This document shows positions 26,187-34,155 of a DNA stretch of 64,000 nt, piece by piece. The stretch is from Corynebacterium hansenii. GTDB taxonomy: Bacteria > Actinomycetota > Actinomycetes > Mycobacteriales > Mycobacteriaceae. Positions within the stretch are counted from its first letter, which is position 1; each line of letters opens with the position of its first letter. The notes under the pieces were generated by a model, which was not told the origin of the DNA, searched no databases, and saw nothing but the letters and a program-made list of their open reading frames with translations. The translations under genes were made by a program, and so were the position numbers. Where the stretch lies: positions 1,550,001 to 1,614,000 of the forward strand of contig NZ_CP047211.1 of assembly GCF_030408795.1 (NCBI RefSeq), in the 5' to 3' direction.

Positions 26187-28070
26187 GTGACTGACCGAAC
26201 GGCCCCCAATGCCTCAGGGACCCCGCTTCCGCCCGACTTCGAGGAACAGCAAGCCTCGTGGCACAAGGCAGTCGCCGGGGTATTCGCCCGGGTGCGGAAG
26301 CAAGACGTCGCCGACGTTCCGTTGGACGTCTGGAAGAAGCTCAACACCACCACGTACGACGGAGTGGAAGTCCGCCCGCTGTACACCCGGGCGGATGATC
26401 TGGCGGAGGCCCCGGCCCCCGGCCAGTTCCCGTTCACCCGCGGCGCGCGCCTGCGCGGCGCCGACGACGCGGGCTGGGGTGTGCGCGAGACCTTCGGGCG
26501 CACCGGCAGCGGTTCCGCCGCCGAGGTCAGCAAGGCGCTTCTCGACGCCCTGACCAACGGCACGTCCGCCGTTCGCCTGGATCTGCGCAACGGGCTGTCC
26601 GCCGCGGACCTGCCCGCGCTGCTGAAGGGCGTGTACCTGGATCTCGCACCGATCGCGGTCGAGGCCGGGGACGACGTCGCAGAGGCCGCCGAGGCGCTGC
26701 TCGCGCTCGTCGACGCCGCGGACCTGAAGGACCCGGAAGCGGTCGACATCGAGCTGTCCGCCGCCCCGCTGACCAGCCAGTACACCGGCGCCGCCGAGGT
26801 TTCGCTGGAGAAGGCCGTGGAGATGGCCGTCGCCAACGCCAAGCGTTCCGGCAGCGTCCGCACCCTGCTGGTCGACGGCGTCGCCTTCGCCAACATGGGT
26901 GCCACCGACGCCCAGGAGATCGGCTACGCGCTGGCCGTCGGCGTCGCGTACCTGCGCGCCCTCACCGGCGCGGGCCTGAGCACCGAGGAGGCCCTGGACC
27001 AGATCTCCTTCCGGTACTCGGCCACCGACGACCAGTTCAACACCATCGCGAAGTTCCGCGCCGCCCGCACCCTGTGGGCCCGCGTCGCGGAGGTCGCCGG
27101 CGCCCCCGGCCACGGTTCCGCGCCGAACCACGCCGTCACCGCGCCGGTGATGTTCTCGCAGCGCGACCCGTGGGTGAACATGCTCCGCGTCACCGTCGCG
27201 GCGTTCGCCGCCGGCGTCGGCGGTGCGACCACCGTCGAGGTGCTGCCCTTCGACAACGCCATCCACGGCGGCCAGCCGGGCGTCTCCCGCACCTTCGCCG
27301 CCCGCATCGCGCGCAACACCAACCTGCTGCTCCTGGAGGAGTCGCACCTCGGCTTCGTCGCCGACCCCGCCGGCGGCTCCTACTTCGTGGAGGAGCTGAC
27401 CGACGAGATCGCCGACCGCGCGTGGAAGATCTTCACCGACGTCGAGTCCTACGGCGGCATCGAAACCGCCTACGACCACGTCCGCGAGAACATCGACGCC
27501 GCGTACGAGCAGCGCCGCGCCGACATCGCCCACCGCCGCACCAAGATCACCGCGATCAACGAGTTCCCGAACCTGGCCGAGGCCCCGCTGCCCGCGGAGG
27601 CCCGCCCGGTCAACGAGCGCGTCCGCCGCTGGGCCGCCGACTTCGAGGCGCTGCGCAACCGCTCCGACGACTTCCTCGCCGAGCAGGGCCGCCGCCCGCA
27701 GATCGCGATGCTGCCGCTGGGCCCACTGGCCAAGCACAACATCCGCACCGGCTTCACCGCCAACCTGCTCGCCTCCGGCGGCATCGAGGCCCTCAACCCG
27801 GGCCAGGTCGTGCCGGGCGAGGCGTCCTTCGACGAGGCCGCCAAGTCCGCCCCGATCGTCGTGCTGTGCGGCGCCGACGGCGAATACGCCGCCTCCGGCG
27901 CTGACGCCGTGAAGGCCGCCCGCGCGGCCGGCGCCTCCGAGGTGCTCGTCGCCGGTCCGGAGAAGATCTTCGCCGACGCCGAGGGCGATGCCCGCCCGGA
28001 CGGCTACCTGACCATGAACATCGACGCCGTCGCGGAGCTCTCGCGGCTGCTGGACTCCCTGGGAGCGTGA
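26187..28070 (+). CDS. mutA: Methylmalonyl-CoA mutase small subunit
   Basis: Protein of 627 aa, the non-catalytic partner of MutB. The TIM-barrel half (about 60-440) is recognisable from [51 protein letters not shown] and [13 protein letters not shown]. The C-terminal half keeps the flavodoxin-like shape (about 490-627) but lacks the cobalamin-ligand His motif found in MutB, as expected for the small subunit. The dimer interconverts (R)-methylmalonyl-CoA and succinyl-CoA, linking propionyl-CoA with the TCA cycle. GTG start with AGGGAGAAGG upstream. The stop codon overlaps the GTG codon at 28067. Confidence 0.96.
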
Positions 28071-28078
28071 ACGGACCA

Positions 28079-30352
28079 ATGACCACCATCCCCAGTTTCG
28101 CGGACGTGCCGCGGACCGGCGAGGACGCCGCCCCGGCCGCCGACGGGCAGCCCGGCGCCGCAACCGAGACCTGGACCATCCCCGAGGGCATCGACGTCAA
28201 GCGCGTCTACGACCGCGCCGATCGCGAGGCCGCGGCCGCCGAGGGCCACCCCGTGGACTCGTTCCCGGGCCTGGCCCCGTTCATGCGCGGGCCGTACCCG
28301 ACCATGTACACCAACCAGCCGTGGACGATCCGCCAGTACGCGGGCTTCTCCACCGCCGCCGAGTCCAACGCGTTCTACCGCCGCAACCTCGCGGCCGGCC
28401 AGAAGGGCCTGTCGGTCGCGTTCGACCTGGCCACGCACCGCGGCTACGACTCGGACAACCCGCGCGTCACCGGCGACGTCGGCATGGCCGGCGTGGCCAT
28501 CGACTCGATCTACGACATGCGCCAGCTGTTCGACAGCATCGACCTCGGCGGCGTGTCCGTGTCCATGACCATGAACGGCGCGATCCTGCCGGTGATGGCG
28601 ATGTACATCGTCGCCGCCGAGGAGCAGGGCGTGCCCCCGGAGGAGCTGCGCGGCACCGTGCAGAACGACATCCTCAAGGAGTTCATGGTCCGCAACACGT
28701 ACATCTACCCGCCGAAGCCGTCGATGCGGATCATCTCTTCCATCTTCGAGTACACCTCGCTGAAGATGCCGAAGTTCAACTCGATCTCCATCTCCGGCTA
28801 CCACATCCAGGAAGCCGGCGCGACGGCCGACCTGGAGCTGGCGTACACGCTGGCCGACGGCGTCGAGTACATCCGCGCCGGCCTGGACGCCGGCCTGGAC
28901 ATCGACAAGTTCGCCCCGCGCCTGTCGTTCTTCTGGGGCATCTCCATGAACACCTTCACGGAGATCGCCAAGCTGCGCGCCGGCCGCATCCTGTGGGCCG
29001 AACTGGTGAACAAGTTCGACCCGAAGAGCCCGAAGTCCCGGTCGCTGCGCACCCACTCGCAGACCTCCGGCTGGTCGCTGACCGCCCAGGACGTCTACAA
29101 CAACGTGGCGCGCACCGCGATCGAGGCGATGGCGGCGACCCAGGGCCACACCCAGTCGCTGCACACCAACGCGCTGGACGAGGCCCTGGCCCTGCCGACC
29201 GACTTCTCGGCCCGCATCGCCCGAAACACCCAGCTGCTGCTGCAGCAGGAGTCGAACACGGTCCGCCCGGTCGACCCGTGGGCCGGCTCGTACTACATCG
29301 AGTGGCTGACCAACGAGCTGGTCAAGCGCGCGCGCCAGCACATCGAGGAGGTCGAGGAGGCCGGCGGCATGGCCGAGGCCACCGTCGAGGGCATCCCGAA
29401 GCTGCGCATCGAGGAGTCCGCGGCCCGCACCCAGGCCCGCATCGACTCCGGCCGCCAGGCGCTCATCGGCGTCAACAAGTACCAGGTCGAAGAGGACGAG
29501 GAGATCGAGGTCCTCAAGGTCGAGAACTCCCGCGTCCGCCAGGAGCAGAACGAGAAGCTCCAGCGCCTGCGCGCCGAGCGCGACGAGGAGAAGACCCAGG
29601 CCGCGCTGCGCGCCCTCACCGAGGCGTGCCGCAACCCCGGCGAGCCGGGCGACCTGGACAAGAACCTGCTGAAGCTGGCCGTGGACTGCGCCCGCGCCAT
29701 GGCCTCCATCGGCGAGATCTCCGACGCCATGGAGGAGGTCTTCGGCCGCCACCAGGCCGAGATCCGCACGCTGTCCGGCGTGTACAAGGACGAGGTGGGC
29801 AAGGAGGGCACCGTGTCCAACGTCGCGAAGGCCATCGCCATGGCCGACGAGTTCGAGGCCGAGGAAGGCCGCCGCCCGCGCATCTTCCTGGCGAAGATGG
29901 GCCAGGACGGCCACGACCGCGGCCAGAAGGTCGTCGCCTCCGCGTACGCCGACCTGGGCATGGACGTCGACGTGGGACCGCTGTTCCAGACGCCGGAGGA
30001 GGCCGCCAAGTCCGCGGTCGACGCCGACGTCCACGTCGTGGGCGTGTCCTCGCTGGCCGCCGGCCACCTGACCCTGGTGCCGGAGCTGCGCGCCGAGCTG
30101 GCCAAGCTGGGCCGCGAAGACATCATGGTCGTCGTCGGCGGCGTCATCCCGCCGGGCGACTTCCAGGAGCTCTACGACGCCGGCGCCGCGGCGATCTACC
30201 CGCCGGGCACCGTCATCGCCGACGCGGCAATCGACATGATCGGCAAGCTGGCCGCCGATCTCGGCCTGGAGCTGAAGTCCGGCTCCGCCGAGGACGTCGA
30301 CGCCGGCGATGCCGAGGGCGCCTACGGCGGCGTCGAGGACGCCGAGGAGTAG
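28079..30352 (+). CDS. mutB: Methylmalonyl-CoA mutase large subunit
   Basis: Catalytic subunit of 757 aa. The N-terminal TIM barrel binds the CoA ester ([19 protein letters not shown]; Tyr and Arg contacts typical of the family), and a linker (about 450-590) leads to the cobalamin-binding domain. There GQDGHDRG supplies His612, which replaces dimethylbenzimidazole as lower ligand, and GVSSLAAGH and GGVIPPGD line the tail pocket. ATG 28079 (MTTIPSF) is chosen because homologous proteins begin this way; GTG 28067, overlapping the mutA stop codon, is an alternative that adds four residues. Confidence 0.97.
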
Positions 30353-30614: not shown

Positions 30615-31736
30615 ATGACGGGCTTTCTCGAGGACAACCTTGGCACGCTCAACACCACTGCCGGCACGGTGGTGGAGGGCCGCACCGCGGTGGCGCCGGA
30701 AAAGGTGCGCAGGGCGCGGCGCCGCATCGACGTCGACGAGCTTTTCGACGGCGTGCGCGCCGGAAACCGGACCACCCTCGCGCGGGCCATCACCCTGCTC
30801 GAATCCACCGCGCCCGCCCACCGGGTGCTGGCGCAGGAACTGCTGGTCAAGCTCCTGCCGTTCTCCGGCGACGCGATGCGCGTGGGCCTGACCGGCGTGC
30901 CGGGCGTGGGCAAGTCCACGACGATCGAGACGCTGGGCATGCACCTCATCGAAAAGGGGCACAAGGTCGCGGTGCTGGCCATCGACCCGTCGTCGACGAA
31001 GACGGGCGGGTCGATCCTGGGCGACAAGACCCGCATGGCCAAGCTGTCGGCGGCCGACGAGGCGTTCATCCGGCCATCGCCGTCGGCGGGCACCCTCGGC
31101 GGCGTGGCCAAGGCGACCCGCGAGTCGATGGTGGTGCTGGAGGCCGCGGGCTTCGACGTCGTCATCGTCGAAACCGTCGGCGTGGGCCAGTCCGAGGTCG
31201 CGGTGGCCCAGATGGTCGACTGTTTCGCGTTCCTGGCGCTGGCCGGCGCGGGCGATCAGCTGCAGGGCATCAAGAAGGGCGTGCTGGAGATGGCGGACGT
31301 CATCTCCATCAACAAGGCCGACGGGGCGAATCTGAAGCCGGCCAAGCGCGCCGCCCGGGACCTGTCCACCGCGATGAAGATGGTCCGCGCCAAGGACGCC
31401 ATCTGGACCCCGCCGGTGCTGACCATGTCGGCGCTGGAGAACGACGGCATCGAGAAGTTCTGGGCGGCGATCGAGAAGCACCGCGAGACGATGATCGAGG
31501 CCGGCCTGTTCTCGCGCAACCGCTCCGACCAGCAGGTCAAGTGGATGTGGTCGATGGTCCACGAGACGCTGCTGCAGCGCCTCGCCGACGATGAGGCGGT
31601 GCGCGAGGCGCAGGACCTGGTCGAATCGCAGCTGCGCGACGGGCAGATCACCCCGACGCTGGGCGCGGAGCGGATCATCGAGGCCTTCGACGGCGGCCGC
31701 CCCGGCACGTCGCGCGACGTCGACGCGGGGAAGTAG
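30615..31736 (+). CDS. meaB: Methylmalonyl-CoA mutase-associated GTPase MeaB
   Basis: G3E-type GTPase of 373 aa (ArgK/MeaB family) that protects methylmalonyl-CoA mutase and gates cobalamin loading. Motifs in order: Walker A GVPGVGKST (about 95), switch region IDPSSTKTGGSILGDKTRM, ETVGVGQSE (about 190), base motif NKAD (about 235). The C-terminal dimerisation helix (about 300-350) is present. GAAGG lies close upstream of the ATG. It follows mutB by 262 bp and is followed after 7 bp by the Hsp70-RCC1 fusion gene. Confidence 0.95.
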   Translation: MTGFLEDNLGTLNTTAGTVVEGRTAVAPEKVRRARRRIDVDELFDGVRAGNRTTLARAITLLESTAPAHRVLAQELLVKLLPFSGDAMRVGLTGVPGVGKSTTIETLGMHLIEKGHKVAVLAIDPSSTKTGGSILGDKTRMAKLSAADEAFIRPSPSAGTLGGVAKATRESMVVLEAAGFDVVIVETVGVGQSEVAVAQMVDCFAFLALAGAGDQLQGIKKGVLEMADVISINKADGANLKPAKRAARDLSTAMKMVRAKDAIWTPPVLTMSALENDGIEKFWAAIEKHRETMIEAGLFSRNRSDQQVKWMWSMVHETLLQRLADDEAVREAQDLVESQLRDGQITPTLGAERIIEAFDGGRPGTSRDVDAGK

Positions 31737-31743
31737 GCGCGCC

Positions 31744-34155
31744 ATGACCCGGCGGCTGGCGCTGGACATCGGCGCGACGACGGTGACCGCGCGCCACCGC
31801 AATGCGCACGGCGGCAGGTCGACGGTGCTTTTCGACGGCTCGCCGTCGGTTCCCGCGGCGGTGTGCTTCGAGGGGAAGGGCGCCTGCGCCGGCCGGGCGG
31901 CGGTGGCGGCGGGGGCGGGGGATCCGACCTCCTTCGCCGGTTCGCCGCTGACGGCGGTGCTGGACGGCCGGCTGCGCTACGGGGGAGTCGACCGGGATCC
32001 GGCGGAGCTGATCATGCCGGTGCTGTCGCTGGTTTTGGGGCACGCGCAGGACATCGACCCGGAACCGCCGGAACAGATCGCGTGCGTGGTGCCGCTGGGC
32101 GCGTCCGGGCGTCTGCGGAAACCGATGACCATGGCGGCGACGTCGCTGGGGCTGCCCGAGCCGTTTCTGATCCCGGAGCCGGTGGCCGCGGTGCTGCACG
32201 CCACGGGCGGGCAGGGGCTGCCGCCGGGGAGCACGGGCGTCGTCATCGACGCGGGCGGCAGTTCGATGGAGGTCACCGTCCTGCGGGGCACGGAATCCGG
32301 CGCGCCGGAGATCGTGGCCGACCGCTCCGACCGCTCGCTCGGCGGCGATGACGTCGACGCGCGGATCATGGCGTGGCTGGGCGCGGCCCTGGAGCGGGAG
32401 AATCCCGGTTTGGCGTCGGCCCTGCGCGCGGAAACCAACCGCACGCTGCTCGCGGCGCTGCACCAGGAGGTGCGCCGGGCCAAGGAGGAGCTGTCGCGGT
32501 TCCCGGAAACCGACATCGCGGTGACCACGCTCACCGGCCACGGAACGGTGCGCATCACCCGCGGCGACCTCACTCGCATCCTCGCGGACTGGTCGGCACG
32601 GGCCCGCGCCCTGGCGTCGGCGACGCTGACGGCCGCGGGGTTGCCCGCCGATGGGTCGATCGGATGCTTCATCATCGGCGGCGGTGCATCGCTGCCGACG
32701 CTGCCCGCCGCGCTCGCACCGGTCGGCCGCCTGACCCTGGCCCACGAACCGCTCACGGCGGCGGCCGATGGAGCGCTCCTCGCAGATGACGCGGTCCTCG
32801 CCGAGATCGCGGCGATGGACGAGGTTCCGCGGCGGCCCGTCGCAAAGCCCGAGGCCACGCCCGTTGAGCCGCGGGACACGCCGCCGCCGGCGCATCCCAT
32901 GACGCAGGAGGCGCCGCAGGCGCCCGGGATGACGGCCCCGCCCGCCGCACCGGTGTTCCGGGGCGCCGCAGTCGACCGGCCGCGCCCCGCTTCGCCCTTC
33001 GCGGGTGCGGTGGGCCATCGCCCGCCGGTGCGGGGCACGGGGGCCGCGTCGCCGTATGGGGCCATCGAGATGCCCGCTCGATTCTCGAAGATCTGGCCGG
33101 GCACGACGCACATCGCCGCGGAGGCCGCCGACGGCACGATGTGGCAGTGGGGCGACCTGCCGCGCCTGTATTTCGGGGGCAAGCCACGCGCCCCGCAACC
33201 GGTCCACGGCGTCGTCGGCCCCGTGCAATCGGGGGCGTCGGGCGCGTCGTTCACCGTCATCGTCGACGCCCGGGGGCGGATGATCGCGTGGGGCTCCTGC
33301 GACATGAACCAGATCGGCGTGGAGAGGTCCCCGATCCCGAAGGACGCACCGGTGCGGCCGATCATTCCCGCGCCGGTCACCGCCGTCAGCTGCGGGACGT
33401 CCCACTCGCTGGCCGTCACCGAAGACGGGCACGTGCTGGCGTGGGGCGCGCCCATGGGCGGGCGGCTCGGCTACATGGACGCACTGGACCTCGCCCCGCA
33501 GGTGCCCCAACCGGTGACGCACACCGTCTGCGACATCGTCGGGGTGGCGGCCGGGCGCAACCACTCCCTGGCCCTCGACGAAAACGGCGATCTGTGGGGG
33601 TGGGGCAACGACAACCGCGGGCAGATCAGCGGCACGCCGGGCCTCGGTTCGCTTCACCCGATGCGGCTGCCCACTGCGGTGGCGTTCACGGGCATCGTCG
33701 CCGGCAAGGACATCACGCTGGCCCTCGACGCCGACGGCGGGGTGTGGTCCTGGGGCCGCAACGACCGCGGGCAGTTGGGCCTCGGCGGTCCGGCGACGCG
33801 GTCGGGCGCGGGACGGGTCGGGCTGCCGGGGCCGGCCGTGCGCATCTTCGCCGGCCACGGTCACGCGGGCGCGGTGCTTGCCGACGGTGCGCTGTTCGTC
33901 TGGGGCTCGAACAACCACGGACAGCTCGGGTTCCCGGGCGCCAACCGCAGCTTCACGTCGGTGCCCCGGCCCGTGGTCATGCCCGGCGGCGCGCGCGTCG
34001 CGGATGCGGGCGGCGGCGACGGCTACACGGCCTGCCTGACCGTCGACGGCGCGGTGTTCACGTGGGGCAACGGCTTCCACGGGGTCGACGGCGGGGGCAG
34101 CCGAGGGCGGGACAACCCCACGCCCACGCGGCCGGCGGGCTCGCGCGCCGGCTGA
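31744..34155 (+). CDS. Fusion of an Hsp70-like actin-fold ATPase with a seven-repeat RCC1 propeller
   Basis: Protein of 803 aa with an unusual architecture. Residues 1-350 are an Hsp70/actin-type ATPase: phosphate-1 LALDIGATTV (5-14), IPEPVAAVLH (143-152), phosphate-2 VVIDAGGSSMEVTV (166-179), the Hsp70-like LGGDDVD (199-205) and RAKEELSRF (245-253), and the adenosine motif FIIGGGASLP (309-318). There is no substrate-binding domain. A Pro/Ala-rich linker (about 355-445) follows. Residues 450-785 hold seven RCC1-type repeats, each ending in WG or WGxxxxGQLG-like turns (e.g. HSLALDENGDLWGWGNDNRG, 607-626), enough for one closed seven-bladed propeller. No signal peptide or membrane segment is seen. 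It starts 7 bp after meaB, so it is probably cotranscribed with the mutase genes. The frame is open to 31591 but that part is inside meaB. Function unknown; a chaperone or scaffold for the mutase complex is a guess from context. Confidence 0.85.
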   Translation: MTRRLALDIGATTVTARHRNAHGGRSTVLFDGSPSVPAAVCFEGKGACAGRAAVAAGAGDPTSFAGSPLTAVLDGRLRYGGVDRDPAELIMPVLSLVLGHAQDIDPEPPEQIACVVPLGASGRLRKPMTMAATSLGLPEPFLIPEPVAAVLHATGGQGLPPGSTGVVIDAGGSSMEVTVLRGTESGAPEIVADRSDRSLGGDDVDARIMAWLGAALERENPGLASALRAETNRTLLAALHQEVRRAKEELSRFPETDIAVTTLTGHGTVRITRGDLTRILADWSARARALASATLTAAGLPADGSIGCFIIGGGASLPTLPAALAPVGRLTLAHEPLTAAADGALLADDAVLAEIAAMDEVPRRPVAKPEATPVEPRDTPPPAHPMTQEAPQAPGMTAPPAAPVFRGAAVDRPRPASPFAGAVGHRPPVRGTGAASPYGAIEMPARFSKIWPGTTHIAAEAADGTMWQWGDLPRLYFGGKPRAPQPVHGVVGPVQSGASGASFTVIVDARGRMIAWGSCDMNQIGVERSPIPKDAPVRPIIPAPVTAVSCGTSHSLAVTEDGHVLAWGAPMGGRLGYMDALDLAPQVPQPVTHTVCDIVGVAAGRNHSLALDENGDLWGWGNDNRGQISGTPGLGSLHPMRLPTAVAFTGIVAGKDITLALDADGGVWSWGRNDRGQLGLGGPATRSGAGRVGLPGPAVRIFAGHGHAGAVLADGALFVWGSNNHGQLGFPGANRSFTSVPRPVVMPGGARVADAGGGDGYTACLTVDGAVFTWGNGFHGVDGGGSRGRDNPTPTRPAGSRAG

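Follow-up and report, generated by a model that had tools for sequence, protein, structure and literature searches.

The window analysed here is a 64,000-nucleotide stretch of the Corynebacterium hansenii genome (contig NZ_CP047211.1, positions 1,550,001 to 1,614,000). The gene in question lies on its forward strand, immediately after meaB, the gene for the GTPase associated with methylmalonyl-CoA mutase. Its stop-free translation of 803 residues joins a nucleotide-binding domain (NBD) of the Hsp70 type to an RCC1 propeller by way of a linker, and its parts are laid out as follows (the genome of the window is G000; other genomes and loci carry similar handles).

31744..34155, + strand: Hsp70-type NBD/RCC1 fusion gene, 803 residues plus stop; single frame also in G122, G261, G109 and G198
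31744..32787, + strand: degenerate Hsp70-type NBD, residues 1-348 (Pfam HSP70, E 8e-13; hhalign probability 100% to ten NBDs of an actinobacterial Hsp70-like family; best solved relatives DnaK chains)
32788..33063, + strand: linker rich in proline and alanine, residues 349-440, of varying length and without a membrane span
33064..34152, + strand: seven-bladed RCC1 propeller, residues 441-803 (Pfam, tryptophan-glycine pattern, AlphaFold strands, Foldseek)

Both halves were recognised by Pfam, HSP70 at E 8e-13 over residues 135-322 and RCC1 at E 5e-39 with six repeats above threshold. The HSP70 model matches those residues only, and the NBD is followed by the linker and the RCC1 repeats, which bears out an earlier reading of this DNA (the original prediction) as an Hsp70-type NBD without a peptide-binding domain. 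The five motifs that it had listed are likewise present and in order: LDIGATTV at 7-14, IDAGGSSMEVTV at 168-179, LGGDDVD at 199-205, RAKEELS at 245-251 and FIIGGGASLP at 309-318. The NBD motifs, comprising phosphate-1, phosphate-2, connect and adenosine, come in the same order as in DnaK and HscA, but the fusion differs from both in having no peptide-binding domain and in the replacement of residues for hydrolysis, and its NCBIfam scores for HscA (54.7 of 620 bits) and DnaK (47.4 of 822.55 bits) are far below the cut-offs.

In the C-terminal half, a tryptophan-glycine pattern marks blade cores at about residues 466, 564, 617, 667, 717 and 771. A seventh core, at about 513, was picked out by eye and is consistent with the strands of an AlphaFold model, which was built from a four-row alignment and has a mean predicted local distance difference test score (pLDDT) of 46. 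In this model the strands between residues 447 and 775 fall into seven groups.

33082..33153, + strand: blade 1 strands, residues 447-470
33187..33294, + strand: blade 2 strands, residues 482-517
33376..33447, + strand: blade 3 strands, residues 545-568
33535..33606, + strand: blade 4 strands, residues 598-621
33649..33753, + strand: blade 5 strands, residues 636-670
33808..33906, + strand: blade 6 strands, residues 689-721
33955..34068, + strand: blade 7 strands, residues 738-775

The pLDDT is at least 60 in 22 of the 37 ten-residue blocks of the propeller, with loops down to 25. Foldseek matched the model to structures of UVR8, HERC2, RCC1, RPGR and BLIP-II, including Ran-bound RCC1 (1i2m), with a best E of 3.4e-25; the 50 matches listed have template-modelling scores (by target) of 0.57-0.76, root-mean-square deviations of 4-7 Å and identities of 18-28%. 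The propeller fold is thus held in common with the RCC1-fold propellers (RCC1, UVR8, HERC2 domains and BLIP-II), but none of the 50 matches listed is described as joined to an Hsp70-type domain. With six Pfam repeats, the seventh by eye, seven groups of model strands and the Foldseek matches, the complete seven-repeat propeller first proposed for this protein holds. The form in G109 (L061:7613-10039) carries an insertion of 33 residues between blades 6 and 7.

Catalytic positions of the nucleotide-binding domain

The NBD residues were aligned for four distinct forms of the fusion (G000, G261, G109 and G198; the near-identical G122 was omitted) together with 96 relatives from the actinobacterial family and nine DnaKs. 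The positions concerned are the following.

31762..31785, + strand: phosphate-1 motif LDIGATTV, residues 7-14; the DnaK Thr11 position is Ala
31948..31950, + strand: Leu69 codon, at the position of the Hsp70 catalytic Lys (DnaK K70) in the NBD alignment
32245..32280, + strand: phosphate-2 motif IDAGGSSMEVTV, residues 168-179; Asp194 kept, Gly198 to Ser, Thr199 to Ser or Ala, Asp201 to Glu
32668..32697, + strand: adenosine motif FIIGGGASLP, residues 309-318; the motif Arg is Ser or His

At the position of DnaK Lys70 all four fusion forms have Leu, and Lys is present in 95 of the 96 relatives and in 9/9 DnaKs. The fusion forms also depart from the relatives at the positions of Thr11 (Ala in all four versus Thr in 92/96), Gly198 (Ser versus Gly in 96/96), Asp201 (Glu versus Asp in 96/96) and the adenosine-motif Arg (Ser or His versus Arg in 91/96); at the Thr199 position, three forms have Ser and one has Ala, and 95/96 relatives have Thr. 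The motif order that led the domain to be called an ATPase is therefore there, but several of the catalytic residues are missing. DnaK carrying K70A or T199A is reported to bind ATP still but to hydrolyse none (PMC5561102; see also PMC9691929); K70A is further reported to block ATP-driven opening (PMC5561102) and to have failed to complement a mycobacterial dnaK deletion (PMC4109909). Because the equivalents of the catalytic Lys, Thr199 and Asp201 are replaced in all four distinct whole forms, the NBD is more likely to be a pseudo-ATPase, possibly one that still binds nucleotide, than the motor of an ATP-driven clamp.

Such a clamp, an active Hsp70-type machine working on methylmalonyl-CoA mutase or on cobalamin delivery, was among the roles first envisaged for the fusion. 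Background of this kind exists: DdrA, EutA and MutL are Hsp70-like reactivases of other B12 enzymes. The Hsp70-fold motif order, the retained equivalents of Asp8, Glu171 and Asp194, and a place beside meaB that is kept wherever the fusion exists would all fit. Against this stand the replacement of the Lys, Thr199, Asp201 and Thr11 equivalents in 4/4 distinct forms, the lack of any B12-reactivase model (DdrA, EutA, MutL) among the Pfam and NCBIfam hits of the fusion, taken up to E 1 and E 0.01 respectively, and the failure to find the fusion in most meaB-bearing genomes of the genus (see below). Membership among the B12 reactivases was rejected on those searches, and we regard an active clamp as very improbable.

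One other protein in the alignment lacks the catalytic Lys. The Corynebacterium Hsp70-like protein L154:544-2883 (G085), the sole such case among the 96 relatives, has Ile at this position and a GAAT phosphate-1 motif, keeps its membrane span, and is apparently a separate pseudo-ATPase, to judge by its residues.

Relation to an actinobacterial Hsp70-like family

Comparison of the fusion NBD with ten NBDs of the actinobacterial family, which has members in many genomes of the order, gave an hhalign probability of 100% (E 1.9e-44, 343 columns); the profile comparison with DnaK 2v7y gave E 1.3e-14. In the usual family protein the NBD is followed by a Pro-rich linker, then by a single hydrophobic span and finally by an outer domain. 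Judged by hydropathy only, a span is present in 89 of the 95 non-fusion family proteins of at least 430 residues (the six without one are L005, L072, L074, L118 and two 5'-truncated pieces) and in none of the four fusion forms. The fusion and the family thus share a full-length homologous NBD, a Pro-rich linker and a variable C-terminal module. They differ in that the family keeps the catalytic Lys (95/96) and the span (89/95), whereas the fusion has neither, carries RCC1 repeats, adjoins meaB and is without a dynamin-family neighbour. When 103 family proteins were searched with the RCC1 half, nothing matched besides the four fusion forms; of the 99 remaining proteins, three are truncated at contig ends.

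Among the families listed for the C-terminal parts of 95 family proteins (the first 25 of 55), WD40 occurs in nine proteins and Peripla_BP_6 in four. Two proteins from other genomes of the order, L072 and L074, resemble the fusion in pairing an Hsp70-like NBD with a C-terminal beta-propeller and in showing no span, but their propeller is WD40 instead of RCC1, their catalytic Lys is kept and their NBDs lie elsewhere in the tree. With WD40 propellers on family NBDs, the combination of an Hsp70-like NBD and a propeller is therefore known in kind, and RCC1 is seen only in the fusion. The pairing had first been taken to be an isolated one; this stands for RCC1 with this NBD, which we see only here, and fails for the NBD, which belongs to a large family with varied C-terminal domains. 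A characterised bacterial precedent had also been thought to be lacking, and no description of the pairing was found in the titles and abstract starts of open-licence literature on Hsp70 with RCC1, bacterial RCC1, the Hsp70-like family or Hsp70-like pseudo-ATPases. The animal protein Hspa13/STCH is likewise an Hsp70 NBD without a peptide-binding domain, but it keeps the Lys (K100), and the accessible part of PMC9691929 mentions no propeller.

In a tree of 94 NBDs the four fusion forms group together (100/100), with a branch of 2.45 changes per site leading to them; their place beside divergent Corynebacterium relatives is uncertain (85/93, long branches). The fusion is best read as a relative of the actinobacterial family that is degenerate and soluble and has a new propeller at its C-terminus.

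Two further features of the family were seen. In L004/L102 (G047) and L071 (G060), an Hsp70-like NBD is followed by a hydrophobic span and Peripla_BP_6, so ordered that the proteins look like ligand-sensing receptors with an Hsp70-like inner domain. At a paralogue locus in the genome of the window (L064:7567-12508), the neighbouring gene has a match to Pfam Dynamin_N (E 1.2e-12), and tblastn with this dynamin-family protein gave matches in 27 of 100 family loci (E up to 1e-4), a count to which related species each contribute and in which most loci came with no more than 1.5 kb of flanking sequence. No description of an Hsp70-like/dynamin pairing was found in the literature searched. The fusion loci, including stretches of 15-18 kb from G122, G261 and G109, gave no dynamin match; the fusion adjoins a different GTPase gene, meaB, a parallel that we note and take no further. 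PADLOC returned no match for the fusion or two paralogues, and a role in anti-phage defence was set aside.

The meaB locus, distribution and selection

The fusion gene stands among the following features.

26187..28070, + strand: mutA, methylmalonyl-CoA mutase small subunit (TIGR00642, 600.4 bits, slightly below the cut-off of 617.25)
28067..30352, + strand: mutB, methylmalonyl-CoA mutase large subunit (NF006944, 1252.5 bits, cut-off 876)
30615..31736, + strand: meaB, methylmalonyl-CoA mutase-associated GTPase (NCBIfam NF006958, 502.5 bits, cut-off 329)
31727..31733, + strand: GGGGAAG, putative ribosome-binding site within the final meaB codons
34169..35836, - strand: SDR-type gene, convergent; the same gene abuts meaB in G235, which has no fusion

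The end of meaB at 31736 and the start of the fusion at 31744 leave a gap of 7 bp, as first described. The order mutA-mutB-meaB-fusion-SDR-cls-PEBP-pyrD is identical in G122, G261 and G109, and the short contig of G198 shows meaB-fusion-SDR. In all six genomes with the fusion, meaB lies directly upstream of it (of the whole gene in G000, G122, G261, G109 and G198; of the first 54 codons in G199), at distances of 4-11 bp (11 bp in G199). The motif inside the end of meaB has identical letters in G000, G122, G261 and G198 and reads GGAAAG in G109; in G199, GGGGAG is located in the gap itself. Because of these short gaps and of the motif inside meaB, whose bases double as coding sequence for the end of MeaB, the arrangement suggests that the fusion is co-expressed with MeaB. 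The SDR gene contains, within its dehydrogenase region, a long stretch rich in Ala, Gly and Ser that by eye differs between G000 and G198.

A search of 242 Corynebacterium genomes (at most four candidates scored per genome, limit 1e-13) found the whole fusion gene in five genomes of four species: G000 and G122 (the same species), G261, G109 and G198. Whole-protein identity to the G000 form is 99% for G122 (98.5% in another comparison), 71% for G198, 68% for G109 and 67% for G261, with programs differing by a few points. In G199 the gene is broken at contig ends: one contig has meaB followed by the opening 54 codons of the fusion, and a second has the final blades next to the SDR gene. A scan of genome contigs with the fusion alignment returned three relatives, all Corynebacterium. 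The relative of 99% identity (L075, NZ_JVMD01000024.1) is labelled Corynebacterium halotolerans 307_CHAL, which may be a misnomer, and a further relative C. xerosis.

Beyond the genus, among the matches listed, none to both halves was seen besides G000 and G261 in 397 genomes of the order (limit 1e-20), or besides G000 in 394 genomes of the class (1e-32) and 296 of the phylum (1e-35); these searches took two or three candidates per genome under strict limits from overlapping genome sets, so a rare or distant fusion could escape them. By tblastn, 129 plasmid and 23 phage records were matched, none of which had 80% of the query covered at a single site, and each of the matches listed (30 of the 129 and 15 of the 23) fell in one half of the protein alone, Hsp70-like or RCC1. 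A mobile origin was rejected on this coverage.

Ratios of non-synonymous to synonymous change (dN/dS) were obtained by the Nei-Gojobori method. Over five between-species pairs meaB has ratios of 0.09-0.14 and the NBD 0.19-0.24; the propeller gives 0.37-0.51 and the linker 0.32-0.84. These values are rough because synonymous change is high. Within the species (G000 versus G122) the ratio is 0 for meaB, 0.06 for the NBD, 0.18 for the propeller and 0.71 for the linker. Both domains are under purifying selection, the NBD more strongly. A frameshift, a join of two genes in assembly or a decaying gene might have been suspected from the very long branch in the NBD tree and from the G199 copy broken over two contigs. 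However, five genomes from four species have both halves in one reading frame, dN/dS is far below 1 in both domains, and the G199 pieces stop at contig ends. The frameshift or join against which the original prediction had warned was not found, and we treat an artefact as ruled out and decay as next to inconceivable.

The tie to the mutase fared less well. MeaB acts as a GTPase in the loading and protection of methylmalonyl-CoA mutase, and its gene was matched (E 1e-100) in 66 of 241 Corynebacterium genomes. The fusion is present in six of these 66, with G199 in pieces, and was not found in the remaining 60 by the genus search. In about 11 kb around meaB it was also unmatched (E 1e-6, more than 25% identity) in eleven genomes: G064, G065, G132, G034, G223, G138, G233, G235, G196, G023 and G070. 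In G235 the alignments of meaB and of the convergent SDR gene end 5 bp from each other, and because meaB abuts the SDR gene there, the fusion can be said to occupy the meaB/SDR junction. The nearer relatives G064, G065, G132, G034, G223 and G138 have neither the fusion nor the SDR gene at the meaB junction. A meaB tree of 30 rows groups the six fusion genomes with seven that have no fusion (91/86), a topology compatible with gain of the fusion after the sister group parted, or with gain before this and loss in the sister group. Every copy found adjoins meaB, as the proposed link would have it; most relatives that have meaB nonetheless lack the fusion beside it, and in G235 meaB runs straight into the next gene, which makes the link weaker. 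All copies that were found lie at this one place and in a single species group, so that gene order provides no independent test of the link. The gene order itself is plain, and the link to the mutase is weak.

The same observations allow that the fusion is a passenger, placed after meaB merely by its origin there in this clade and serving an unrelated client. Confinement to one species group, a site at the junction where the G235 meaB abuts the SDR gene, and the single location of all copies agree with this. The gaps of 4-11 bp and the putative ribosome site in meaB fit co-expression instead, by which a shared function is not proven, and we hold a passenger to be a real possibility, if short of an even chance.

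The propeller might, alternatively, regulate MeaB as a nucleotide-exchange or docking factor, with a dead NBD positioning it. Eukaryotic RCC1 is an exchange factor for Ran, and Ran-bound RCC1 is among the structural matches; in 6/6 genomes the fusion closely follows a gene for a GTPase, and the parent family lies near a dynamin-family gene in 27/100 loci. Yet many RCC1-fold proteins, UVR8, HERC2 and RPGR among them, are not known to be exchange factors; MeaB and Ran are distant GTPases, and most species have MeaB without the fusion. We consider such regulation improbable. Quite improbable, too, is a more specific version, in which the fusion would be a clade-specific MeaB regulator, a bacterial pairing of RCC1 with a GTPase on a dead Hsp70 anchor, domesticated as an offshoot of an Hsp70-like/GTPase partnership near dynamin-family genes.

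A proposed non-cycling scaffold or adaptor

Taken together, the architecture, the residue replacements, the conservation and the gene order lead us to favour, with a probability of about 0.6, a soluble, non-cycling, two-module binding scaffold or adaptor made of a pseudo-Hsp70 NBD and an RCC1 propeller. The NBD, related to a mostly membrane-anchored Hsp70-like family, would have lost both the residues for hydrolysis and the membrane span, which would leave the protein in the cytosol. It could then hold nucleotide without turnover or offer a fixed surface for protein docking. The flexible Pro/Ala linker would tether it to the propeller, which by analogy with other RCC1-fold proteins most likely grips a protein partner. 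The fusion would probably be made together with MeaB, through translational coupling, and its most likely job would be to bring the propeller's client to the docking partner of the NBD. That this client is the MeaB/mutase complex we think possible but less likely than not, and it may be one unrelated to either.

Several points weigh against this scaffold or adaptor. As the Asp8, Glu171 and Asp194 equivalents are retained, the NBD may still hydrolyse ATP weakly. The register of the catalytic Lys shifts by one residue between alignments (Leu69, or Pro68 in the alignment with 2v7y); residues 56-75 of the fusion contain no Lys or Arg, so neither register has a Lys nearby. The geometry of the NBD pocket is not visible because this part of the AlphaFold model is unusable (block pLDDT 21-55). 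A binding role for the propeller would follow by analogy only, and adjacency to meaB may be passive.

The fusion makes a clear natural candidate for the conversion of an Hsp70-type domain into a pseudo-ATPase, one on which selection is stronger than on the domain joined to it, and likewise for the conversion of an Hsp70-like membrane protein into a soluble one that has gained a propeller. It also highlights a large actinobacterial family, for which no dedicated paper was found in the literature searched, in which an Hsp70 NBD is combined with exchangeable C-terminal domains and whose genes often lie close to one of the dynamin family. Were the fusion shown to bind MeaB, it would add a new layer to the maintenance of B12 enzymes.

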